From: Lachnospiraceae bacterium
GTDB taxonomy: Bacteria > Bacillota > Clostridia > Lachnospirales > Lachnospiraceae
Direction: 5' to 3'
Assembly: GCA_024699355.1 (NCBI GenBank)
Contig: JAILPR010000009.1
Location: 1-37,873, forward strand
Length of the DNA stretch: 37,873 nt
Shown here: positions 15,887-32,507 of the stretch, in pieces
Position numbering within the stretch: position 1 is the first letter of the stretch
How the letters are laid out: the number at the start of each line of letters is the position of its first letter
Program-made: the position numbers and the translations under genes
Notes under the pieces: generated by a model
Told to the model about the DNA's origin: nothing
The model's database searches: none
The model's input: the letters and a program-made list of their open reading frames with translations, nothing else

Positions 15887-15949
15887 AGAATCAGTATTTT
15901 GTATTCAAAATACTCAAAAAATACTACATCCTATGGGGAGACTGATTAC

Positions 15950-17701
15950 ATGAAATTTAAAACCGTTTTTAAGAGTTTACGCAAAGCACTGTTGGTAGGT
16001 GCTCTCGTCGCTTCTCTTTCCGTTTCTACCGTAACGACTTCGAACGCAGCCGTACTCGGTATCGATGTCAGCAAATACAACGGCGCCATCGACTGGAATG
16101 CCGTTGCATCCGCAGGTGTCGCTTTCACCTTTATCAAAGCGGGAAGTACCAACAGCGGCGTTGATCCGCAGTTTGTCAACAACATTACCAATGCACAGGC
16201 TGCAGGCATCCGTACCGGTGTTTACATTTACTCCTATGCGATGAGTGTGGAGGAGGCCGTCAATGAAGCCAATCTCCTGCTCGAATGGATCGCACCGTAC
16301 GGTGTCAATTTCCCCGTTGCATTTGATATCGAGAGTCGTGCACAGTCCGCTCTCGATCCGGCGACCATCACCGCGATGTGTAATGCCTTCTGCGATGTCA
16401 TCAACAACGCCGGCTACTATCCGATCGTTTATACCTACAAGAACTTCTTCAAAGGGCATATGACCTCGGATCTTCGTTATGATTATTGGATCGCCCAGTA
16501 TAAATCCGAGACCTGTGATATTGGCGGGTATTCCGTTTGGCAGTACTCCAGCACAGGCTCCATCCCGGGCATTTCCGGCGCCGTGGATCTGAACTGGATG
16601 GTCAAGGATTTTTCCGGTGTGATCATCAAAGACGGTTTCGCACAGCATGGTGACTATGTCTTCTTCTATCAGAATTATCTGATGCAGCGTGGCTGGGTAA
16701 CCTACAACGGCGCCCGTTACCACATGGATGACAACGGTCACATGAATACCGGATGGTTCTCTGATGCAAGCGGCACCTACTACTTATCTACCGTAGACGG
16801 ACATGCCGCAGTCGGTCTGGTTCCGTTGGATGCCGATACCTTCTACTTCGATGAAGAAGGTCGCATCTGCAACGGCTATATCACGATCGCTGATCAGAAA
16901 TACTACTTCGATCCGACCAATGGCTGCCGGATGTACAAAGGTTGGCTCACCGACTCCACCGGCGTTCATTATCTGTCGCTGGATGATGGTCACATGGTGA
17001 CCGGAGCCGCTCTCATCGACGGTAAGAATTATCTCTTCAACACTGACGGCAATATGCTGACCGGCTGGCAGACTGTCAACGGCCAGACTTATTACTACTC
17101 ACCTGAGAACGGTGCGATGGTAACCGGTTGGGTCGGCGATACTGCTAACCGCTACTATCTGTCCTTAGAGGATGGACATCGTGTCAGCGGTATGGTAACC
17201 ATTGATGGCAAGAACTACTACTTCGATCCGGAAACCGGCAAGATGCAGGTTGGCATGATCCCGCTGGGTGATACCACCTACTACTTCGATCCGAACACCG
17301 GCGCGATGATCACCGGCTTTGTCGGCGATCTGACCAATCGTTATTACTTCAACATCACCGATGGCCGTATGGTCAAAGGAACCGCACAGATCGACGGTGC
17401 GACCTACTATTTTGATACGACAACCGGTAAGATGCAGCTTGGCTGGCAGGTACTTGGCGGCCTGACCTACTACTTCGATCCGGCAACCGGTAAGATGATC
17501 ACCGGTTGGATCAGAGGCACGGAAGCCACCTATTACACCGCGACAGACGGTCATCTGATCACCGATCAGGCGCTGACCATTGAGGATCACATGTATGTCT
17601 TTAACACCGAAGGCCGCTTATGTGCAAACATGAACTACACCATCGGTACCACGACTTACAGCTGTGATGCCAACGGATATGCAACTGTGATCACACAGTA
17701 A
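15950..17701 (+). CDS. Secreted GH25 lysozyme with C-terminal cell-wall/choline-binding-type repeats
   Basis: Signal peptide MKFKTVFKSLRKALLVGALVASLSVSTVTTSNAA; GH25 signature VLGIDVSKYNGAIDWNAV...FPVAFDIES...; repeats of G(W/M)...YYFDP.TGKM; RBS GGGGAGA before ATG 15950. Confidence 0.92.
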   Translation: MKFKTVFKSLRKALLVGALVASLSVSTVTTSNAAVLGIDVSKYNGAIDWNAVASAGVAFTFIKAGSTNSGVDPQFVNNITNAQAAGIRTGVYIYSYAMSVEEAVNEANLLLEWIAPYGVNFPVAFDIESRAQSALDPATITAMCNAFCDVINNAGYYPIVYTYKNFFKGHMTSDLRYDYWIAQYKSETCDIGGYSVWQYSSTGSIPGISGAVDLNWMVKDFSGVIIKDGFAQHGDYVFFYQNYLMQRGWVTYNGARYHMDDNGHMNTGWFSDASGTYYLSTVDGHAAVGLVPLDADTFYFDEEGRICNGYITIADQKYYFDPTNGCRMYKGWLTDSTGVHYLSLDDGHMVTGAALIDGKNYLFNTDGNMLTGWQTVNGQTYYYSPENGAMVTGWVGDTANRYYLSLEDGHRVSGMVTIDGKNYYFDPETGKMQVGMIPLGDTTYYFDPNTGAMITGFVGDLTNRYYFNITDGRMVKGTAQIDGATYYFDTTTGKMQLGWQVLGGLTYYFDPATGKMITGWIRGTEATYYTATDGHLITDQALTIEDHMYVFNTEGRLCANMNYTIGTTTYSCDANGYATVITQ

Positions 17702-20262: not shown

Positions 20263-21006
20263 TTAAAGTACCTTGGATAAGAAATCCTGCAAACGCGGAT
20301 TTTTCGGGTGATGGAAGAATTCCTCCGGAGAAGCCTCTTCCTGGATTTGACCTTCGTCAATGAACATCACACGATTTCCGACCTCTCTGGCAAATCCCAT
20401 CTCATGCGTCACAACGACCATCGTCATTCCGCTCTTGGCAAGTTCCTTCATGATTCCGAGCACTTCACCGACCATTTCCGGATCCAACGCACTGGTCGGT
20501 TCATCAAACAGCATGACATCGGGATCCATTGCCAAAGCTCTGGCAATGGCGATACGCTGCTTTTGACCGCCGGAGAGCTGATTGGGATAAGCATCCGCTT
20601 TATCTTCCAGGCCAACTTTTTTCAACAGTTCCATGGCCCGTGCGGTTGCTTCTTCTTCCGATTTATGTAACAGCTTCATCGGTGCCACCGTGATATTTCG
20701 AAGAACCGTCATATGCGGAAACAGATTGAACTGCTGGAACACCATCCCCATACGCTCACGTAACGCATCGACATTGCAGCCCGGCGCATTGATCTGCTCG
20801 CCTTCAAAAATGATCTTACCGCCCGTTGGCTGCTCCAGAAGATTTAAACATCTCAGAAATGTTGACTTTCCGGAACCGGATGGTCCGATGATCACGCAAA
20901 CATCGCCTGCACAAATCTCTGTGGAAATTCCGCGAAGTACATCCACGTCATCAAACGTCTTACACAAATCCTCGATATGAAATAATACATTTCCTTTAGT
21001 GATCAC
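20263..21006 (-). CDS. glnQ: Polar amino acid ABC transporter ATP-binding protein (GlnQ-like)
   Basis: Walker [25 protein letters not shown], Walker [17 protein letters not shown] track start 21039 overlaps the permease; GTG at 21006 likely. Confidence 0.9.
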
Positions 21007-21679
21007 CGGAACGTAACCTCCTCTCGAGCCGACCTTCAAGTGCCGTCAGGAGCATCACGATCAGCAGATAAATAATGGCTACCGAGATCAGCGGGATAAA
21101 CGCTTCATAAGTACGGCTTCGAATGATATTGCCGCCGTGCGTCAGATCCGCCAGACCGATATAGCCGCTGATCGAAGTCTCTTTGAGCAACGTAATAAAC
21201 TCATTGAGCAGTGCCGGCAGACAGTTTTTAAATGCCTGCGGAAGAATGACTACGATCATGGTTTGTGCATAAGAAAATCCAAGGCTTCGGCCGGCTTCCA
21301 TCTGCCCCTTATCAATGGACATGATGCCGCTTCGAACAACCTCTGCCACATAGGCGCCGGAATTGATCCCAAATGCCAGAATGGCAACCAGCACACGATT
21401 ATCCGTACTTGCAAAAACCACATAGTACATGATCAGCAGCTGGATCATGGTCGGTGTACCTCGAATGATGGTCAGATAGGCCCTGCAAAGTAAATCCAGC
21501 AGATTCTTTTTGCCTGTCTGCTCCGATGTCGATCGAACGATCGCCACGATAAAACCGATCACGATACCCAGCAATGCAGCAAAGATGGTAATGACGATCG
21601 TCGTCCCAAGACCGCCGACCAGGTACATATATCGATCATCTTCTATAAAATTCTGATACAGCTTTTCTGTAAAGCTCAT
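20996..21679 (-). CDS. Amino acid ABC transporter permease (HisM/GlnP-like)
   Basis: 227 aa; [22 protein letters not shown]...[33 protein letters not shown] permease EAA motif. Confidence 0.93.
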
Positions 21680-21697: not shown

Positions 21698-22483
21698 TTA
21701 TTTCACACGAACAATGATCACCTGTGTAGATGTGGTATAGGTGTCGGAGAAATCGATGTTCTTTAAACGATCTTCCGTCACAGTCATACCTGCAGCACCG
21801 ATGTCTGCCTTACCTGCCTGAACCGCGGTAATGATGGAATCGAATTCCATATCCTGTACCTCTAAGTCCATACCCATCAGGTCTGCTACGGCAGTTGCCA
21901 TATCAACATCGATACCGATGATCTCATTGCCTTCATAGTATTCATACGGCTCAAAGTAAGCATTGGTTGCCATGGTCAGTGTACCGTTGTTATGCTCGTT
22001 CACGCACTCATAGGTGTAGGTGCCTTTGGTGTCATCGCCGATATAATTGCCGATGATCTGATCTAAGGTACCGTCAGCCTTGAGCTGAGCCAGTGCTTCA
22101 TTGACCTGTGCAGTAAGTTCTGTATTGTCCTTGGAAATGCAGATCGCATAATCTTCTTCTGTAAACGGATCATCCAGGATCTTCAGATCGGAGTTCTTTG
22201 CAACATAAGCCTTTGCCGGCTGTTCATCAATGATCACGCAATCAACTTTTCCCTGCTTTAAGGCGCTGACTGCATCGTTACCGGTGTTAAAACGTGAAAT
22301 GGTAGAACCTTCTTCCTCATAATCGGAAGCAAAGATATCGCCTGTGGTTCCAAGCTGAACACCAATGGTCTTGCCCGGCAGATCGTCCGCGCTGAATACG
22401 GTATTGGCCGGTACGCTGCTACCGCAAGCCGTTAACATGGATACGGTTGCTACTGTTAAAATTCCTGCAATAAGTTTTCTCAT
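21698..22483 (-). CDS. Amino acid ABC transporter substrate-binding lipoprotein (SBP_bac_3), apparently circularly permuted
   Basis: Lipobox LTAC; lobe-2-like DLPGKTIGVQLGTTGDIFASDYEE precedes lobe-1-like GTLTMATNAYFEPYEYYEGNEIIGIDVDMA; ORF track start 22537. Confidence 0.88.
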   Translation of the reverse strand: MRKLIAGILTVATVSMLTACGSSVPANTVFSADDLPGKTIGVQLGTTGDIFASDYEEEGSTISRFNTGNDAVSALKQGKVDCVIIDEQPAKAYVAKNSDLKILDDPFTEEDYAICISKDNTELTAQVNEALAQLKADGTLDQIIGNYIGDDTKGTYTYECVNEHNNGTLTMATNAYFEPYEYYEGNEIIGIDVDMATAVADLMGMDLEVQDMEFDSIITAVQAGKADIGAAGMTVTEDRLKNIDFSDTYTTSTQVIIVRVK

Positions 22484-22581
22484 AATTCTCTCCTTTTCCG
22501 CGCATAAAATAACGCTTAACCTTTTGTATTCTAGCATAAAAAAACATCAATTACTATGAAATTCAGTATATTTATGCAAGC

Positions 22582-22611
22582 AAAAAGGCCGCTCCGATTG
22601 CGGCCTCTTTG
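22582..22611 (-). terminator. Rho-independent terminator
   Basis: Minus strand AAAGAGGCCGC-AATCGGA-GCGGCCTTTTTG downstream of the Na/Pi transporter. Confidence 0.85.
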
Positions 22612-22661
22612 CTCGTTTCATCTATGGATCTTTCGATCTATACCATTTCAGTTGATCGATC

Positions 22662-24791
22662 CTATTTCTTTTTATCTTTCTTTTTGTCTTTCCTGTCTTT
22701 CTTTTCCTTGCTGTCTTTTTTCTCTTTCTTGTCTTTCTTTTCCGCCTTCTTGCGGTCCTTTTCGGCAAGTTTCTTCAAAATCTCCTGCATCTCGGCATCA
22801 CTTACGCCGTCGGCAGCCACCCCTGAAGCAACCTGTGGTGCATTTTCCGGAAGCTCCTGGGCTGCAACACGTGAAGGGATCCCATCCACGCTCTGATCCT
22901 GCGAGAGCATTGCCATATCATGCGCATCTTCCATCGCCATGACATTGACCAGCACCGGATGTGCTTCCACAAAGGAGGCATTCATCGCCTCGTCGTCATC
23001 ATGCTTTGAAATCGGCAAGCGATACTTTCGCTCATAGAAGTCAACCGACTTTTCGAAGTCCGCGTTCTTCTCTTCTCTGACCATCTCCAGATAGCCATGG
23101 GTATCAAACCCGTCTTCACTCACCTGCAAAATGCAGACAGCAACATTACTGCAGTGATCGGCGATACGTTCATAATCCGTACCGATATCGGAAAGATCAA
23201 ATCCAAGTTCGATCGTGCATTTGCCTTTACGAAGTCGTCTGACGTGACGACGTTTTACTTCCATATGCAGACCATCGATCACCTCTTCTAACGGTTCGAT
23301 CGATTTGGCCAATGTCAGATCCAACGTTTCAAATACCGTAACGGAGGTCGATACGATTTCCGTTACAGCTGCGGTAAATACACGAACCTCTTCCGCCGCT
23401 TTTGCTGAGAAGTGACGATCTGCTTCATGCATCTCACGTACGGTCTGCATGATATTTAACGCATGATCGCTGATTCGTTCAAAATCACTGATGCAGTGCA
23501 GCAGGATCGATAAGGTATGACTGTCGTTTCTGGTCATCTGTACGCTGCTCAGCTTCACCAGATACGTTCCAAGCTGATCTTCGTAGCGGTCGATCTTCTT
23601 TTCCAAACGGTCGATCTCATCCGCCTTCTCCTGATCGTAATTCTCGATCAGTTCCATAGCCATAAAGAGGGAATCTCTTGCACTCTCAGCCATATCCGCA
23701 GCAGCTCTGCGGCTCAGTTCCAGTGCAAACGGCGGGTTGGATAAGAATCTGGTATCGAGCGTCGTTAAGACCTCGGCATCTTCCTGCTCCTGACGTTCCT
23801 TCTCATCGATCGGGATTGTCTTGAGTGCCAGTGAAACAAGCACTCCGGAGAACGGCAGCATCAGCGGCGTACCGATCAGGTTCACGAGCGTATGGATCGA
23901 AGCGATACCAACCATGCCTGCCGCTTCTTCCATAAAGCCAAAATGAAGAACCGCATTGAGTGCATAGAACACGATCATAAAGGTAGACGCTTTGATGATG
24001 TTAAAATACAGATGCATCAGCGCTGTTCGTTTACCATTCTTATTCGCTCCGAGTGAAGAAAGGATCGCAGTAATACAGGTACCGACTTCCGCACCGATAA
24101 CAACCGGAATTGCCATGGAATAGCTGATAAAAATAGAAGAACTGAGTGCCTGAACAACACCGATCGTTCCGGCAGAGCTCTGAATCACCATAGTAAATAA
24201 GATACCGATCAGAAGACCAAAGATCGGGTTCTGGAACATTGTTAAAAAGGACTGGAATTCCGCAGACGTCTTCAGCGGTGCAACTGCATCCGACATCATA
24301 TCCATCCCAAACATCAATACAGCAAAACCAAGCAGGATGGTTCCGACATTTTTCTTTTTATCGGATTTGGTAAACATATACAGACCAATACCGATCAACG
24401 CCAAAAACGGCGTAAACGACATCGGCTTAAACAGATTGATGATAAAATTATCACTGCTGATCGCATTTAAACTGAGTAACCACGCAGTAAATGTGGTACC
24501 GAGATTTGCTCCGAGAATCACATTGACAGCCTGCTTTAAGGACATGATGCCGGAGTTTACAAGACCGACAACCATAACCGTCGAGGCTGAAGATGACTGT
24601 ACAAGTGCCGTGACACCGACACCAAAGAAATATGCCAAAAGCTTATTGGACGTAATATGCGCCAATGTGCTCTCCAGCTTACCGCCGGATGCTTTGGTAA
24701 GTCCGCCGCTCATGACATTCATTCCGTATAGGAACATCGCAAGGCCACCGATCAGACCGGCAACCAAAGTGAATAGCTCAATTGCACTCAT
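22662..24791 (-). CDS. Na/Pi cotransporter family protein with PhoU-like domain and Lys-rich C-terminal tail
   Basis: 709 aa; GLAMFLYGMNVMSGGLTKASGGKLES, ALVQSSSASTVMVVGLVNSG, VIQSSAGTIGVVQAL repeats; helical PhoU-like region; tail KKDKKEKKDSKEKKDRKDKKKDKKK. Confidence 0.93.
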   Translation of the reverse strand: MSAIELFTLVAGLIGGLAMFLYGMNVMSGGLTKASGGKLESTLAHITSNKLLAYFFGVGVTALVQSSSASTVMVVGLVNSGIMSLKQAVNVILGANLGTTFTAWLLSLNAISSDNFIINLFKPMSFTPFLALIGIGLYMFTKSDKKKNVGTILLGFAVLMFGMDMMSDAVAPLKTSAEFQSFLTMFQNPIFGLLIGILFTMVIQSSAGTIGVVQALSSSIFISYSMAIPVVIGAEVGTCITAILSSLGANKNGKRTALMHLYFNIIKASTFMIVFYALNAVLHFGFMEEAAGMVGIASIHTLVNLIGTPLMLPFSGVLVSLALKTIPIDEKERQEQEDAEVLTTLDTRFLSNPPFALELSRRAAADMAESARDSLFMAMELIENYDQEKADEIDRLEKKIDRYEDQLGTYLVKLSSVQMTRNDSHTLSILLHCISDFERISDHALNIMQTVREMHEADRHFSAKAAEEVRVFTAAVTEIVSTSVTVFETLDLTLAKSIEPLEEVIDGLHMEVKRRHVRRLRKGKCTIELGFDLSDIGTDYERIADHCSNVAVCILQVSEDGFDTHGYLEMVREEKNADFEKSVDFYERKYRLPISKHDDDEAMNASFVEAHPVLVNVMAMEDAHDMAMLSQDQSVDGIPSRVAAQELPENAPQVASGVAADGVSDAEMQEILKKLAEKDRKKAEKKDKKEKKDSKEKKDRKDKKKDKKK

Positions 24792-24875
24792 AAATTTTTT
24801 CTACTCTCCTACTTTTAGTCCTTCACCTGTCAATCCATCTTTTATTTTACTTGATTTTTACCAAAAGGACAATCT

Positions 24876-24905
24876 AAAAACCGCTATGTCGAGACATAGC
24901 GGTTT
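24876..24905 (-). terminator. Rho-independent terminator after lysA
   Basis: AAAAACCGCTATGTC-GA-GACATAGCGGTTTCT; minus strand ends GCGGTTTTTAG. Confidence 0.88.
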
Positions 24906-24969
24906 CTATCTTCCAAAAGTCTTAATTCAATTGCCCGGATAGCGGGAGCCGGCGGGCTGTTACTACTGC

Positions 24970-26244
24970 TTAGAAGCCCAGCTTATGATAGATCTCAAAC
25001 TGATCCAGTGTTGCAAAATAATCCTTTGGTGTCTCGGCTCTGCGGATCAGTTCTACGCTTCCGTCCTCTTTTAACAGGAGTTCTGCGCATTTTAATTTGC
25101 CGTTATAGTTATAGCCCATTGCATAACCATGAGCGCCTGCATCATGGATGTATAAGTAATCACCCATCTCGATCTTCGGCAACTGACGGTCGATCGCAAA
25201 TTTATCATTGTTCTCGCAAAGAGATCCGGTCACATCATAGGTGTGATCCAGCGGAGCATCCTCTTTCCCGAGTACCGTGATGTGATGATATGCGCCATAC
25301 ATTGCCGGACGCATCAGATTTACGGCACAGGCATCAACACCGATGTATTCCTTGTGTGTATGCTTCTCATGAATCGCCTTTGTCACAAGACTTCCGTACG
25401 GTGCGAGCATAAAACGGCCCATCTCCGTATAGATCGCGACATCGCCCATGCCTGCCGGAACCAGGATCTCTTCATAGACCTTACGTACCCCTTCACCGAT
25501 GACACAGATATCATTTGCTTCCTGCTCCGGGCGATATGGTACACCGACACCACCGGAAAGATTGATAAAAGTGATCTTTACGCCGGTCTCTTTCTGCAGT
25601 TTTACCGCAAGTTCAAACAGTTCTCCCGCAAGTTTCGGATAATATTCATTGGTCACGGTATTGCTTGCCAGAAATGCATGCATACCGAAGTTTTTAACGC
25701 CTTTGCTCTTTAAGATACGATATGCTTCAAACATCTGCTCTGTCGTCATACCGTACTTTGCATCCCCCGGATTGTCCATGATGCCGTTACTCATCGTAAA
25801 GACACCGCCCGGATTATATCTGCAGCTCATCGTCTCGGGAAGCTTTCCGCCGCAGGCTTCTTCACAGAAATCAATGTGTGTAATATCATCCAGATTAATG
25901 ATCGCACCAAGTTCGTTCGCATAGGTATACTCTTCTGCAGGTGTATCATTGGAAGAAAACATGATCTTCTCTCCCGGAAGACCAAGTGCCTTGCTTAACA
26001 TCAGCTCTGTCATGGAAGAGCAATCCGTACCGCAGCCATACTCTGATAAGATCTGGATCAGACGCGGATTCGGAGTCGCTTTTACGGCAAAATACTCACG
26101 GAATCCTTTGTTCCAGGAAAACGCTTCCTGTACAGCCTTGGCATTTTCGCGAATGCCTTTTTCATCATATACATAAAACGGTGTCGGATAGGTCTTTGCA
26201 ATCTCTTCGATCTTCGCTTTCGTTACACATACTGGTTTTTTCAA
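24970..26244 (-). CDS. lysA: Diaminopimelate decarboxylase (fold III PLP decarboxylase)
   Basis: 424 aa; TPFYVYDEKGIRENAKAVQEAF...EYFAVKATPNPRLIQIL; GGVGVPYRPEQEA; GSLCENNDKFA; HDAGAHGYAMGYNYNGKLK. Confidence 0.87.
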   Translation of the reverse strand: MKKPVCVTKAKIEEIAKTYPTPFYVYDEKGIRENAKAVQEAFSWNKGFREYFAVKATPNPRLIQILSEYGCGTDCSSMTELMLSKALGLPGEKIMFSSNDTPAEEYTYANELGAIINLDDITHIDFCEEACGGKLPETMSCRYNPGGVFTMSNGIMDNPGDAKYGMTTEQMFEAYRILKSKGVKNFGMHAFLASNTVTNEYYPKLAGELFELAVKLQKETGVKITFINLSGGVGVPYRPEQEANDICVIGEGVRKVYEEILVPAGMGDVAIYTEMGRFMLAPYGSLVTKAIHEKHTHKEYIGVDACAVNLMRPAMYGAYHHITVLGKEDAPLDHTYDVTGSLCENNDKFAIDRQLPKIEMGDYLYIHDAGAHGYAMGYNYNGKLKCAELLLKEDGSVELIRRAETPKDYFATLDQFEIYHKLGF

Positions 26245-26355
26245 ACTGTTCTCCTCAACTTTCTATTCTCTCGCAGTCTCACACTTTATCACGGTACAAG
26301 GTGAAACCGTTAGAAAAAACTATAAAATGTCATGCGCGATCTGTCAAGTAAAAAG

Positions 26356-26455
26356 CGTAGCGCGCAATCGTACAGCTTTCCCATCCAAAAAAGCCGTGTG
26401 CAATCGTACAGCTTTCCCATCAAAAAGAGCCGTGTGCAATCGCACACGACTCTTT
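26356..26455 (-). repeat. Tandem array of three 36-bp-period terminator-like stem-loops; most oppA-proximal copy (26424..26455) is a perfect terminator
   Basis: GCAATCG loop at 26364, 26400 and 26436 (exact 36-bp spacing); copy 3 AAAGAGCCGTGTGC-AATC-GCACACGACTCTTT with T-run on minus strand. Confidence 0.85.
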
Positions 26456-26485
26456 CGACGTTCATGATCAATTCAATAGAACAGA

Positions 26486-28318
26486 TTATTCTCTACCAAA
26501 CTGGCAATCGTTGTTACCGGATGCAGCGGTCCACATCTCAAGCATGTTGATCGGATCGTTGAAATCTGCTAACCAACCTTCACGAGCGAAGTCGAAGTTA
26601 CCTGCTTTACGATCATCCAGGAATACGTTCCACTCTTCGGAAGTAATGGTCATTTCGATACCAAGCTCAGCGAAATCCTGCTGCATAGCTTCTGCAACTT
26701 TGATATGGCCTGTACCATCGTTGGTCAGGTAATTTAAGGAGATCGGAGTAGACTCGGAAAGCATACCGTTCTCATCAAACTCATAACCAGCCATCTCAAG
26801 AAGGATTCTTGCATCTTCTACACATTCTGCAGAATAAGAATCTGTGAAGTAACCTGTTGTATCAGCATTCGGATAAGTATAAGCGTCATCGTTGGTCTTG
26901 AATACACCACCGTTACCATCTAACATACCTGCCGGAATGAATGCAGTAGCAACTTCCTGACCTGTCTGGCCGATGTTCTGTACGATGTAATCACGATCGA
27001 TCAACAGTGTCAGTGCAATTCTCATCAGAGCAGCCTGTGTAGCAGTCTTGCCTGCAAACAGCTCACTGTTTACGTTGAATGCTGCATAGTAAGTACCCAG
27101 GTTCGGAACGATGTAGAACTCAGAGTTCTCAAGCAGAGATGCAATCGCATCTGTCGGAACGGAATCGATGAAGTCAACATCACCTGCGTTGTAAGCAGAG
27201 AAGATTGCAGTATCATCTGCACTCAGCATGAAGTGAAGCTCATCAACAGTTACGTTCTCAGCATCATAGTAGTACGGATTCTTTACATAAACCATAGACT
27301 CATCATGGGTCCACTCTTTCAGAACATAAGCACCGGAAGATACGAAACCTGCTTCCTGGCACCATGCACCCGGGTTAGCTTCCCAATCAGCTGCAGATTC
27401 AACAGCTGCCTGCTGAACCGGATAGAATGCCGGGAAAGCCATCAGGTCAAGGAAGTATGCACAAGGAGCACCCAGAGTTACAGTTAAGGTATGATCATCA
27501 TCAGCAACAACGTTTACTTCGCCGTTTGCATCTTTGATGTTATCAAACATATAAGCATAGTCAGCTGCAGTCTCATCAGCTGCTGCTCTCTTCCAGCTGT
27601 AAACGATATCGTTTGCTGTCAGATCAGAGCCATCAGACCACTTTAAGCCTTCCTTCATGGTGATGGTGTAAACCAGACCATCATCAGATACAGTGTAGGA
27701 ATCAGCAAGTGCCGGCTGAAGTTCGCCGTTTGCATCATAGGTGTACAGACCTGCAAAAGAGTTTACTGCAAGGCATGCACCATCTACAGAGCTGTTCAGA
27801 GCCGGATCAAGCTTTGCCGGTTCAGAAGCAAGGTTAGCGTTCAGAACGCCACCTTCAACGCCTTCAGCGTACATAAAGTACTTGAAGCCGTACAGGTTGG
27901 AGTAGATGTTAGAGATTCCATCTCTTAACATATAAATATCATTGTAATAGTAGATCGGAAGAACCGCACCTGTAGCCATCAGGATATCCTCTGCCTGATG
28001 CATCAGTGCTTCACGGTTTGCATAATCTGTTTCAGACTTGATCTGAGAGATCAGAGACTCATACTCTGTCCAATCCGGAGCTGCTTCATTGTAAGAAGCT
28101 CCCTGTAAAGAATTTGCAAGCTCTACAAGGCCTGCTACGCTCTCGCTAACCTCTGCGGTAGCTTCTGCGCCTTCTTCAGTAGCTGCTGCGTCATCTGCGA
28201 CTACAGCTTCTTCTGCGCTTTGTGTTTCGCCTGTTGCAGAGTTCATGGTCTGACCACAGCCGGCCAGAGTAGTCATGACAAGTGCAAGAGAAAGAAACAT
28301 TGCTGTTGCTTTTTTCAT
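26486..28318 (-). CDS. oppA: Oligopeptide ABC transporter substrate-binding lipoprotein (SBP_bac_5), apparently circularly permuted
   Basis: Lipobox LAGCG; OppA C-terminal-like segment YESLISQIKSETDYANREALMHQAEDILMATGAVLPIYYYNDIYM...GFKYFMYAEG lies before the N-terminal-like segment LASEPAKLDPALNSSVDGA; ends ...NMLEMWTAASGNNDCQFGRE*. Confidence 0.9.
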   Translation of the reverse strand: MKKATAMFLSLALVMTTLAGCGQTMNSATGETQSAEEAVVADDAAATEEGAEATAEVSESVAGLVELANSLQGASYNEAAPDWTEYESLISQIKSETDYANREALMHQAEDILMATGAVLPIYYYNDIYMLRDGISNIYSNLYGFKYFMYAEGVEGGVLNANLASEPAKLDPALNSSVDGACLAVNSFAGLYTYDANGELQPALADSYTVSDDGLVYTITMKEGLKWSDGSDLTANDIVYSWKRAAADETAADYAYMFDNIKDANGEVNVVADDDHTLTVTLGAPCAYFLDLMAFPAFYPVQQAAVESAADWEANPGAWCQEAGFVSSGAYVLKEWTHDESMVYVKNPYYYDAENVTVDELHFMLSADDTAIFSAYNAGDVDFIDSVPTDAIASLLENSEFYIVPNLGTYYAAFNVNSELFAGKTATQAALMRIALTLLIDRDYIVQNIGQTGQEVATAFIPAGMLDGNGGVFKTNDDAYTYPNADTTGYFTDSYSAECVEDARILLEMAGYEFDENGMLSESTPISLNYLTNDGTGHIKVAEAMQQDFAELGIEMTITSEEWNVFLDDRKAGNFDFAREGWLADFNDPINMLEMWTAASGNNDCQFGRE

Positions 28319-28500: not shown

Positions 28501-29466
28501 TTATCTGTTAAAGCAAGCTACTTTATGTCCGTTTCCACGATCCTCAAGTGACGGACACTCCTGTGCACAACGCTCTGTCGCATACGGACATCTGGTACGG
28601 AATGCGCAACCGGACGGCATATGCAGCGGACTCGGGATCTCTCCCTGAAGAATGATACGCTGCTTGGACTTTGCGATCTTCGGATCCGGGATCGGCACTG
28701 CACTAAGCAAAGATTCCGAATACGGATGCATCGGATGATCATACAGTTCATCCGCATCAGCGATCTCAACGATCTTCCCCAGATACATTACCGCGATACG
28801 ATTGGAAATATGATGAACCACGAGCAGGTCATGTGCGATAAACAGATACGCAACACCCAGCTTTTCCTGCAGTTCTTCAAACATATTAATCACCTGTGCC
28901 TGAATGGAAACATCCAATGCGGAAACAGGCTCATCACAAACGATAAATTTCGGATCTACGGCCAACGCTCTCGCAATACCGATACGCTGTCTCTGACCGC
29001 CGGAGAATTCATGCGCATAACGTGTTGCATGCTCTGCGTTCAGACCAACCGTTTCCATTAACGAAAGAATCTTTTCACGGCGATCTGCTTTGGTCGTATA
29101 TAAGTGGTGAACATCCAGCGGTTCACCGATGATATCTTCTACTGTCATTCTCGGATTCAGAGATGAATACGGATCCTGGAATACCATCTGCATCTCTTTA
29201 CGAAGTTCCGGCATATTCTTTTCGGTCACCAGTTCTCCGTTAAATCTAAACTCACCGGAAGTCGGCTTATACAGATGTAACAGGGTACGACCTACTGTTG
29301 TCTTACCGCATCCGGACTCTCCTACCAGACCAAGTGTCTCTCCCGGCTTAATGTCAAAAGATACACCATCTACAGCTTTTAAAGTCAAAGACTTTCCAAA
29401 GCCGCCCTTTACGGGAAAGTATTCTTTTAAATCCTTGACTTCCACAAGGTTCTTTACTTCAGACAT
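28501..29466 (-). CDS. oppF: Oligopeptide ABC transporter ATP-binding protein OppF
   Basis: Walker A GESGCGKTT; FSGGQRQRIGIARALAVDPKFIVCDEPVSALDVSIQAQ; start MSEVKNLVEVKDL at 29466. Confidence 0.94.
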   Translation of the reverse strand: MSEVKNLVEVKDLKEYFPVKGGFGKSLTLKAVDGVSFDIKPGETLGLVGESGCGKTTVGRTLLHLYKPTSGEFRFNGELVTEKNMPELRKEMQMVFQDPYSSLNPRMTVEDIIGEPLDVHHLYTTKADRREKILSLMETVGLNAEHATRYAHEFSGGQRQRIGIARALAVDPKFIVCDEPVSALDVSIQAQVINMFEELQEKLGVAYLFIAHDLLVVHHISNRIAVMYLGKIVEIADADELYDHPMHPYSESLLSAVPIPDPKIAKSKQRIILQGEIPSPLHMPSGCAFRTRCPYATERCAQECPSLEDRGNGHKVACFNR

Positions 29467-29467
29467 T

Positions 29468-30463
29468 TTAAACCTCTCCAGCAGCACTCAGCTGTTTCTT
29501 TACATTCATCCAGCAGGAAGCATAATGGCCTTCACCAACAAGTTCTTCCTGCGGCTTTTCTTCCAAACAGATCTTTAACGCCTCATCACAGCGTGTGCAG
29601 AAGGCACATCCTGCAGGCATATTCAGCAGATTGATCGGTGTTCCGCCGATCGGGATCAGCTTTTCTTTCATGTTGGAAGCATTCGGGATGGACCGAAGCA
29701 ATCCCTTGGTATATTCATGCGCCGGATGATAGAAAATATCCTCTGCATTGCCTCTCTCGCATACACGACCACCGTACATGACGATGATCTCATCGCACAT
29801 ACCTGCGATAACACCCAGATCATGTGTAACCAGAATGATCGCCATACCGAGCTTTTTCTGCAGATCCTGCATTAATTCCAGAATCTGTGCCTGAATGGTA
29901 ACATCCAGCGCAGTTGTCGGTTCATCTGCGATCAGAATATCCGGTTCGGAAGCAAGCGCCATGGCGATCATGACACGCTGACGCATACCGCCTGATAATT
30001 CATGCGGATACTGTTTTAAACGCTTCTCCGGCTCATTCACGCCAACCAGCTCCAGCATTTCTTTGGCACGATCAAAAGCCTGTTCTTTATTACGATCCGT
30101 ATGAAGCAGAATTGCTTCCATCAACTGATTGCCGATCGTGAACGTCGGATTCAGACTGGTCATCGGATCCTGGAAAATGATACTGCAGCATTTTCCACGG
30201 AAGCCACGCATCTGCGCAGCATTGTAATTCAAAATATTTTCGCCCTTATACAGGATCTCACCGTCGATGACCTTACCGGAGCCTGCCAGGATCTGCATAA
30301 TGGAATATGCCGTAACGGATTTACCGGAACCGGATTCACCAACGATACCAAGGATCTTACCTGCTTCCAGGTTAAAGGAAACACCGTTGACGGCTTTCAC
30401 TTCACCGGAATCGGTAAAAAATGATGTATGTAAATTTTTTACTTCTAGAATTTTCTCACTCAT
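29468..30463 (-). CDS. oppD: Oligopeptide ABC transporter ATP-binding protein OppD
   Basis: GESGSGKSVTAYSIMQIL; LSGGMRQRVMIAMALASEPDILIADEPTTALDVTIQAQ. Confidence 0.94.
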   Translation of the reverse strand: MSEKILEVKNLHTSFFTDSGEVKAVNGVSFNLEAGKILGIVGESGSGKSVTAYSIMQILAGSGKVIDGEILYKGENILNYNAAQMRGFRGKCCSIIFQDPMTSLNPTFTIGNQLMEAILLHTDRNKEQAFDRAKEMLELVGVNEPEKRLKQYPHELSGGMRQRVMIAMALASEPDILIADEPTTALDVTIQAQILELMQDLQKKLGMAIILVTHDLGVIAGMCDEIIVMYGGRVCERGNAEDIFYHPAHEYTKGLLRSIPNASNMKEKLIPIGGTPINLLNMPAGCAFCTRCDEALKICLEEKPQEELVGEGHYASCWMNVKKQLSAAGEV

Positions 30464-30509: not shown

Positions 30510-31580
30510 TTATTTCTTCAGCTTCGGATCAAGTGCATCACGCAAACCGTCACCAAGCAGATTCAATGCCAATACGATCAGGCAGATCATCATTGCCGGG
30601 AATAACAGTTTGTACGGATAGCTCTGCAGACCCTGTCTTGCATTATTTGCCAAAGAACCAAGCGATGGCATCGGCGCTGCAACACCAAGACCGATGAAGC
30701 TCAGGAAACTCTCGGTAAAGATAGCGCTCGGAATCTGAAGTGCTGTTGTGATAATGATAACGCTCAGGCAGTTCGGTAAAATATGCTTCCAGATGATTCG
30801 TTTCGGCTTTGCGCCAATGGACTTTGCAGCCAATACGTATTCGTTCTCTTTTACGGAGAGGATCTGACCACGTACCAGACGTGCCATACCAACCCAGTAT
30901 AACAGACCGAATACAATGAAAATGGAAACCATATTGGTACCAAGCTTTGCAATGATACCTGTTGAATCATTCAATAACTCTTTGAGTACAACGGAAAGCA
31001 AAATAATAACCAGCATATCCGGGAGGGAATAAATAATATCGACGATACGCATCATGATCAGGTCCGTTCGTCCGCCTGCATAACCGGAAATACTACCATA
31101 TAACACACCAATGACCAAAACGATCAGACTGGCGAATAAACCAACGGAAAGAGAAACTCTGGTTCCGTAGATCACACGGATAAAATAGTCACGGCTCAGC
31201 TCATCGGTTCCCATGATATGCGGGAACAGCTTAATGCCGGTCTCTTCCATAAACGCAAGCTCGTTCTCCGAATACTGGAACGGTCCAAGATTCATGGCGG
31301 TCTTATCCCTCATCCCGTTTACCTTCAGGATTTCGGAATAACCGTACGGAACGACAAGCGGTCCGATCGTAATCAATAAAATAATAAGTACAAGTACAAC
31401 AATACTGAAAACTGCCAACGGATTCTTAAAGAGCTTCTTCATACTGTCCTTAAAAAAGGTCGTTGATTCGCTCATGACATCCTGCTGCTTCTTTTCCTCA
31501 TCAGTTGCCTTTTCAAATTTGGAAAGGTCAATCTGCATGCTCAGCGGATTCTTCTTTGGCATCATATCTACATCACTCAT
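30510..31580 (-). CDS. oppC: Oligopeptide ABC transporter permease OppC
   Basis: 356 aa; HIMGTDELSRDYFIRVIYGTRVSLSVG..., FTESFLSFIGLGVAAPMPSLGSLANNA. Confidence 0.94.
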   Translation of the reverse strand: MSDVDMMPKKNPLSMQIDLSKFEKATDEEKKQQDVMSESTTFFKDSMKKLFKNPLAVFSIVVLVLIILLITIGPLVVPYGYSEILKVNGMRDKTAMNLGPFQYSENELAFMEETGIKLFPHIMGTDELSRDYFIRVIYGTRVSLSVGLFASLIVLVIGVLYGSISGYAGGRTDLIMMRIVDIIYSLPDMLVIILLSVVLKELLNDSTGIIAKLGTNMVSIFIVFGLLYWVGMARLVRGQILSVKENEYVLAAKSIGAKPKRIIWKHILPNCLSVIIITTALQIPSAIFTESFLSFIGLGVAAPMPSLGSLANNARQGLQSYPYKLLFPAMMICLIVLALNLLGDGLRDALDPKLKK

Positions 31581-31595: not shown

Positions 31596-32507
31596 TTAGT
31601 CAAACGTAATTCTCGGATCTACCATCTTATAGATCAGGTCACTGATGAGGTTCATGGTTACCATCAGGACTGCAAGGAAGATGGTCGTACCCATGATCAT
31701 CGGATAATCTCTGTTGTTAATACCGGTAACGAATTTAGATCCCAATCCGCCGACTGTGAAGATACTCTCTACTACCATGGAACCGGTCAAAATGGATGCA
31801 AGCATCGGTCCGACATAAGTGATAACAGGAATCAGCGCATTACGAAGTGCATGCTTAAAGATCACTTTTGTGGGAGCAACACCCTTTGCCTTGGCAGTAC
31901 GGACATAATCCTGTCCCAGTACCTCAAGCATACTGGTCTTGGTCAGACGGGTAATGTATGCCATCGGATACATAGACAATGCCAGTACCGGCAACAGATA
32001 GTTGCTGTTCTCTGTGGACCAGACCTGAATCCAGCCAAGTTTGATACAGAATACATATAATAATAAAGTAGCCAATACGAAACTCGGCACCGCCGTCATC
32101 AATGTGGAAATAAACACGATGAATCGATCTGCCCAGGTGTTTCTGTATAACGCTGCGATCGATCCCAGAACAATACCTGTCAGGATCGCCAGTGCAGCTG
32201 CCATACCACCGATGGTTGCCGAAACTTTGAACGAGCCAAAAATAGTCTCTGCAATATCACGACCGGTCTTGGTCGAAATACCCATATCACCATGAACTAA
32301 ACCCTTCACATAAATAATGTACTGTTCCGGAAGCGGCTTATCCAGGTTATAACGCTTCTCCAACGCTGCTTTTACTTCCGGAGAAGAAGCTTTTTCCGAG
32401 TTGAACGGACCACCCGGAACCGCATTCATGGTAAAGAATGTGATGATCGTAATGATCACGATCGTGAAAAATGCTAACAGAACTCTTTTGACAACATATC
32501 TGCCCAT
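31596..32507 (-). CDS. oppB: Oligopeptide ABC transporter permease OppB
   Basis: 303 aa; MGRYVVKRVLLAFFTIVIITIITFFTMNAVPGGPF...; DYVRTAKAKGVAPTKVIFKHALRNALIPVITYVG. Confidence 0.94.
   Translation of the reverse strand: MGRYVVKRVLLAFFTIVIITIITFFTMNAVPGGPFNSEKASSPEVKAALEKRYNLDKPLPEQYIIYVKGLVHGDMGISTKTGRDIAETIFGSFKVSATIGGMAAALAILTGIVLGSIAALYRNTWADRFIVFISTLMTAVPSFVLATLLLYVFCIKLGWIQVWSTENSNYLLPVLALSMYPMAYITRLTKTSMLEVLGQDYVRTAKAKGVAPTKVIFKHALRNALIPVITYVGPMLASILTGSMVVESIFTVGGLGSKFVTGINNRDYPMIMGTTIFLAVLMVTMNLISDLIYKMVDPRITFD

Follow-up and report, generated by a model that had tools for sequence, protein, structure and literature searches.

Two ABC-importer substrate-binding proteins (SBPs) of a Lachnospiraceae bacterium, a GlnH-type and an OppA-type receptor, carry the segments of their folds in a swapped order. 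We find the same orders in many relatives, in genes that are conserved, have more than one origin and are cut at different sites. Both proteins have confidently predicted folds. We consider it likely that both genes encode functional, lipid-anchored type I importer receptors that became natural circular permutants through duplication and trimming. The predicted ligands are polar amino acids for the GlnH-type receptor and oligopeptides for the OppA-type receptor.

Both genes lie in the window, the whole 37,873-nucleotide stretch of DNA analysed here, which is the entire contig C172 of its source MAG (G000). Elsewhere in the window (15899–17701, plus strand) is a gene for a GH25 lysozyme-like protein containing numerous choline-binding repeats.

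Segment order of the two receptors

The GlnH-type SBP begins with its second lobe. Its 279-aa ORF lies at 21698–22537 on the minus strand, as do all genes of the two systems, and was characterized by phmmer against the PDB, Pfam, tblastn and a segment HMM; the likely start is MRKLIAG at 22483. The lipoprotein signal peptide (22427–22483) has the lipobox LTAC, with Cys38 at 22424–22426 (sequence and lipobox survey). Lobe 2 and the C-terminal lobe-1 piece, normally second, come first (residues 46–170; 22028–22402), and the N-terminal lobe-1 piece, normally first, comes last (residues 183–277; 21707–21991), both delimited by phmmer and the segment HMM. Between them, a linker of ~12 aa (21992–22027; segment HMM and AlphaFold2 model) connects what were originally the C and N termini; the equivalent linker is 14–24 aa long in most relatives. 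The chain terminates in the first hinge strand, TQVIIVR.

Homology searches recover both halves in exchanged positions. Against 4zv1 (phmmer, PDB), query residues 181–277 match chain residues 6–103, and query residues 46–167 match chain residues 108–232. Pfam assigns the ORF to SBP_bac_3 (PF00497; 7.1e-36), with both halves matched in two stretches. The segment HMM and the tree show that this swapped, non-canonical order is common to a large clade of relatives. At 279 aa, the receptor consists of one domain and its permease is encoded separately, unlike a GlnPQ-type SBD–permease fusion. T27/T28 (the GTT motif), D67, G210, T215 and R220 are invariant across 43 permuted GlnH proteins; in the SBP_bac_3 family, these residues bind the amino-acid backbone. 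The AlphaFold2 model of the permuted protein reaches a pLDDT of 93.1 and a pTM of 0.87. Its best Foldseek match is the GlnPQ SBD1–SBD2 tandem (6h30), where the order lobe 2–lobe 1–linker–lobe 1 arises naturally at the joint between SBD1 and SBD2.

The OppA-type SBP begins with a short segment that is normally last. Its 610-aa ORF (26486–28318; phmmer against the PDB, Pfam, tblastn and segment HMM) opens with a signal peptide bearing the lipobox LAGC (Cys21; 28256–28318, from sequence). The C-terminal segment stands directly behind the linker (residues 76–152; 27863–28093; phmmer, tblastn and alignment), ahead of the main body (residues 158–608; 26495–27847; phmmer and segment HMM), which ends at GNNDCQFGRE. 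In canonical relatives, the chain continues past the equivalent loop into the C-terminal segment. The match to DppE (8ay0; phmmer, PDB) places query residues 158–601 on chain residues 23–442 and query residues 79–146 on chain residues 446–513; the C-terminal ~75 residues come first, which is not the canonical order. Pfam assigns the ORF to SBP_bac_5 (PF00496; 8e-82), and the AlphaFold2 model has a pLDDT of 88.0 and a pTM of 0.86.

The transport partners of both receptors look ordinary in Pfam, as the initial annotation had stated. The GlnH system comprises a cognate amino-acid permease (BPD_transp_1; 20996–21679) and ATPase (20263–21039). Upstream of the OppA gene lie those for OppF-type (28501–29487) and OppD-type (29468–30463) ATPases and OppC-type (30510–31580) and OppB-type (31596–32507) permeases, of which OppF provides an independent operon marker. 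The same annotation had described the normally C-terminal part as moved behind the lipobox and linker in both receptors. This holds for OppA, where the moved segment is short. GlnH is instead cut at the first hinge strand, which puts lobe 2 and the C-terminal part of lobe 1 ahead of the N-terminal part of lobe 1.

Spread, conservation and limits of permutation

The permuted orders are widespread within the family. In a tblastn search of 397 family genomes that required one continuous match across the new junction, the GlnH junction was crossed in more than 80 genomes and the OppA junction in ~26, bearing out the earlier suggestion that the two cases are unlikely to be random. Both orders are present in dozens of genera of the family. 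Named permuted relatives are mostly Lachnospiraceae and include the complete genomes AP025576.1 and NZ_CP074197.1 and the type strain DSM 15970. The GlnH order with its cut at the first hinge (P1) also occurs in several other families of the class. Outside the class, a few continuous matches mark candidate P1 proteins and suggest that P1 is rarer there. Between related permuted genes, dN/dS is mostly 0.03–0.17. In one single-contig genome, a permuted OppA (L075; G272:C1:439087–440847) is broken by one in-frame TAG; this could reflect a pseudogene or a sequence error.

An assembly or binning artefact had to be excluded, because the source MAG is fragmented (294 contigs, 76% complete) and its genus-mate G001 carries, in a syntenic opp operon, a collinear OppA with 64% identity to the permuted one. 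The same order, however, recurs in many independent assemblies, including complete genomes and isolates. The permuted genes are in frame and under purifying selection, and AlphaFold2 folds both proteins of the window confidently. Together these observations exclude an artefact, to which we attach practically no probability. Canonical order in all other SBPs of the genome, together with collinear orthologues in close relatives, had been named at the outset as a sign of isolated or artefactual events; the collinear orthologue does exist in G001, but the permuted form recurs across genera, which argues against that reading.

Not all SBPs are permuted. Permuted and canonical orthologues coexist at 60–70% identity, even within one genus and in the same operon. 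Family-by-family searches of G000 found collinear order in the other scored SBP_bac_3 proteins, verified by segment HMM for C97 and C211, and also in the main cluster-B sugar SBPs. Across 80 family genomes, SBP_bac_1 proteins are full-length and collinear among the matches listed, and permuted members of SBP_bac_1 and cluster B are absent from the samples examined. The lineage-wide remodelling first proposed holds as a recurrent event, seen in two or more SBP families and in no fewer than three combinations of family and cut site, not as a change to every SBP; the general feature suggested for the lineage is better described as recurrence in two families.

Two other proteins of G000 deserve mention. 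A candidate third permuted SBP (C240, L307), with a reversed PF13407 match, was rejected; it resembles an ABC_sub_bind-type protein of cluster B in collinear order, and the reversed match is probably a cross-match between two similar lobes. A 564-aa lipoprotein (L309; G000:C176, 2682–988, minus strand) adjoins a MetN-like ATPase and, read by eye, appears to be an amino-acid SBP fused with an NlpA/MetQ-like SBP.

Origins of the permuted forms

Permuted GlnH forms include two cut-site classes. On trees built from de-permuted alignments, P1 proper forms one clade (support 100/99). The second class, P2, is cut inside lobe 2 and runs from the lobe-2 C part with the lobe-1 C piece through the lobe-1 N piece to the lobe-2 N part. 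P2 arose at least twice: its 24–25 proteins fall into two groups, P2a and P2b, and a single clade is rejected (AU p=0.004; one group is long-branched). Additional P1 origins were considered and set aside. L228 is placed among canonical rows, but joining it to P1 is not rejected (AU p=0.32), and neither is the union of the distant P1 rows with P1 (AU p=0.186).

The segment order of OppA switched at least three to five times, at one cut site. Permuted and canonical OppAs alternate on the tree with five changes, at least three of which are forced by well-supported branches. The AU test rejects a single clade of permuted OppAs (p=0.002), and does so too when the long-branched L187 is removed. Exchange of main-body sequence by recombination among permuted and canonical OppAs was dismissed as an explanation, since every subwindow of the alignment requires the same five changes and no mosaic blocks are evident. 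OppF from the same operons, a sequence that is itself unpermuted, gives six changes, three of them forced, with groupings that are largely those of OppA.

These switches could be repeated gains or a single gain followed by losses. The cut site is the same in every permuted OppA, and in nearly all of them the chain stops after G-K/R. Each permuted clade, and the distant L187 as well, has an identical end point, as one ancient permutation with repeated reversion to the canonical order would leave it, and this near-uniformity exceeds what several independent trimmings would be expected to produce. Yet gain-only and loss-only models are equally costly in the OppA ingroup, at six changes each, and the route back would be as complex as the route to permutation. 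Because the cut site and end are shared while both models require six changes, either history is possible; an ancient permutation with later reversions fits equally well, and we judge it plausible, at slightly under an even chance.

The textbook route to circular permutation, tandem duplication, is also the most likely one here. Along this route, the binding domain would have been duplicated in tandem and in frame, after which the start of the first copy would be lost behind a retained signal peptide and lipobox, and the end of the last copy would be lost as well. With the N and C termini of an SBP close together, a short linker could bridge them, leaving fold and ligand site intact. The new termini fall at the hinge or within lobe 2, no longer in lobe 1, and the N-terminal lipid would tether the protein elsewhere.

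Tandem arrangements of the kind this route predicts occur among GlnH relatives. In a 973-aa ORF (L159; G197:C2), three consecutive amino-acid binding domains, all canonical and nearly identical, are fused to a permease domain, apparently through a recent triplication in frame. ORFs of 755–1151 aa from other families of the class (L293–L296) contain a tandem of two or three permuted binding domains, and the 200 or more residues that follow the last one are probably a permease. The initial proposal of tandem duplication followed by trimming is thus supported by tandem SBD fusions in the same subfamily; for OppA, no intermediate with a doubled lobe in a single domain (e.g., Cseg-Main-Cseg) was seen. 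Permuted GlnH domains are also fused to their permease in single chains of 500–550 aa (L046, L049, L106, L149, L155 and others), so that both the N-terminal anchor point and the exit into the membrane domain are new.

Anchor point, precedents and implications

Because the signal peptide is always kept, the segment order implies a new site for the lipid tether, at the hinge or lobe 2 instead of lobe 1. Such a shift may have been selected for better docking or ligand release in thick-walled Clostridia with a dense lipoprotein coat, a reading we consider somewhat less likely than not. Every cut-site class, in two families, puts the signal peptide before lobe-2 or hinge segments, and the lipobox survey finds the motif in most permuted proteins (102 of 122 GlnH P1, 24 of 24 P2 and 24 of 29 OppA). 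The authors who described permuted TpMglB-2 proposed the same idea (PMC4990184). Selection on the anchor is no more than possible, however: tethers are shorter in permuted GlnH (median 9 aa versus 19 in canonical forms) yet longer in permuted OppA (43.5 versus 24). Moreover, some permuted OppAs (L054, L062, L069 and L072) have no recognisable lipobox, sister species use canonical orthologues for the same job, and folding tolerance alone would also favour cuts in surface or hinge loops. Near-neutral drift is at least as likely and has, in our estimate, an even chance of being correct: frequent tandem duplication and fusion of SBDs, combined with tolerance of the fold, would generate permuted and reverted forms without benefit. 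The recent near-identical copies of L159, the presence of both orders in one genus and operon type, and the switches in both SBP families are consistent with drift, although GlnH P1 is one old clade (100/99) maintained over many genera, and the large SBP_bac_1 and cluster-B families have no permuted members in the samples.

A permuted lipoprotein receptor is known from another fold. TpMglB-2 (Tp0684) is a circularly permuted glucose-binding lipoprotein, proposed as 'type Ic / cluster Bc', whose relatives are found chiefly in treponemes and in Gram-positive bacteria of the gut (PMC4990184). Like the receptors described here, it is a natural circular permutant and a lipid-anchored ABC SBP, and it itself retains ligand binding and closure (PMC4990184). 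It differs in its cluster B (type I, sugar) fold and its cut site, and has no sequence relation to SBP_bac_3 or SBP_bac_5; Pfam assigns only these two families to our ORFs, and no MglB-like cluster B fold. The canonical counterpart of TpMglB-2 is also distant, whereas here permuted and canonical orthologues are close, even in one genus.

The canonical families differ from the permuted receptors mainly in arrangement. Canonical SBP_bac_3 proteins (cluster F: GlnH, ArtJ, TmArgBP and AncQR 4zv1) have the same halves, ligand residues and permease/ATPase partners as the permuted GlnH, but another segment order and lipid-anchor attachment point. Canonical SBP_bac_5 proteins (cluster C: OppA, DppE and MppA) share the full sequence content and opp operon context, whereas permuted OppA has the C-terminal segment at its N terminus and ends in the GNNDxQFG(K/R) loop. 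The GlnPQ tandem SBDs share the subunit fold, and their inter-domain joint, in permuted order, makes them a plausible intermediate; they are nevertheless two complete canonical domains fused to a permease, rather than one permuted domain. Fukami-Kobayashi reportedly described in 1999 a 'domain dislocation' between PBP types, likewise a topology change within the SBP superfamily, but an ancient change of strand order between fold types rather than an order swap among close orthologues. No description of a permuted SBP_bac_3 or SBP_bac_5 was found in the open-access literature searched, and no single-domain permutant is reported among the PDB matches examined by sequence (GlnH and OppA phmmer).

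The surprising part is the repeated switching of segment order among orthologous operons. Natural circular permutation is usually regarded as rare and old, happening only once in a family. In these receptors it is common, uses several cut sites and affects two SBP families, and permuted and collinear orthologues occur in the same operon. The route by which tandem fusion and trimming produce such forms, whether it can be reversed, and what the anchor point contributes thus become directly testable. For annotation, profile searches split permuted SBPs into two fragments; before such proteins are modelled or used as sensors, their segment order needs checking. It is a speculative and rather unlikely proposition that Clostridia, Lachnospiraceae above all, permute importer receptors of unrelated SBP families repeatedly and reversibly because the shifted tether alters docking, which would constitute an undescribed adaptive axis of importer evolution. 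These receptors offer a natural experiment on the anchoring and folding of such proteins.
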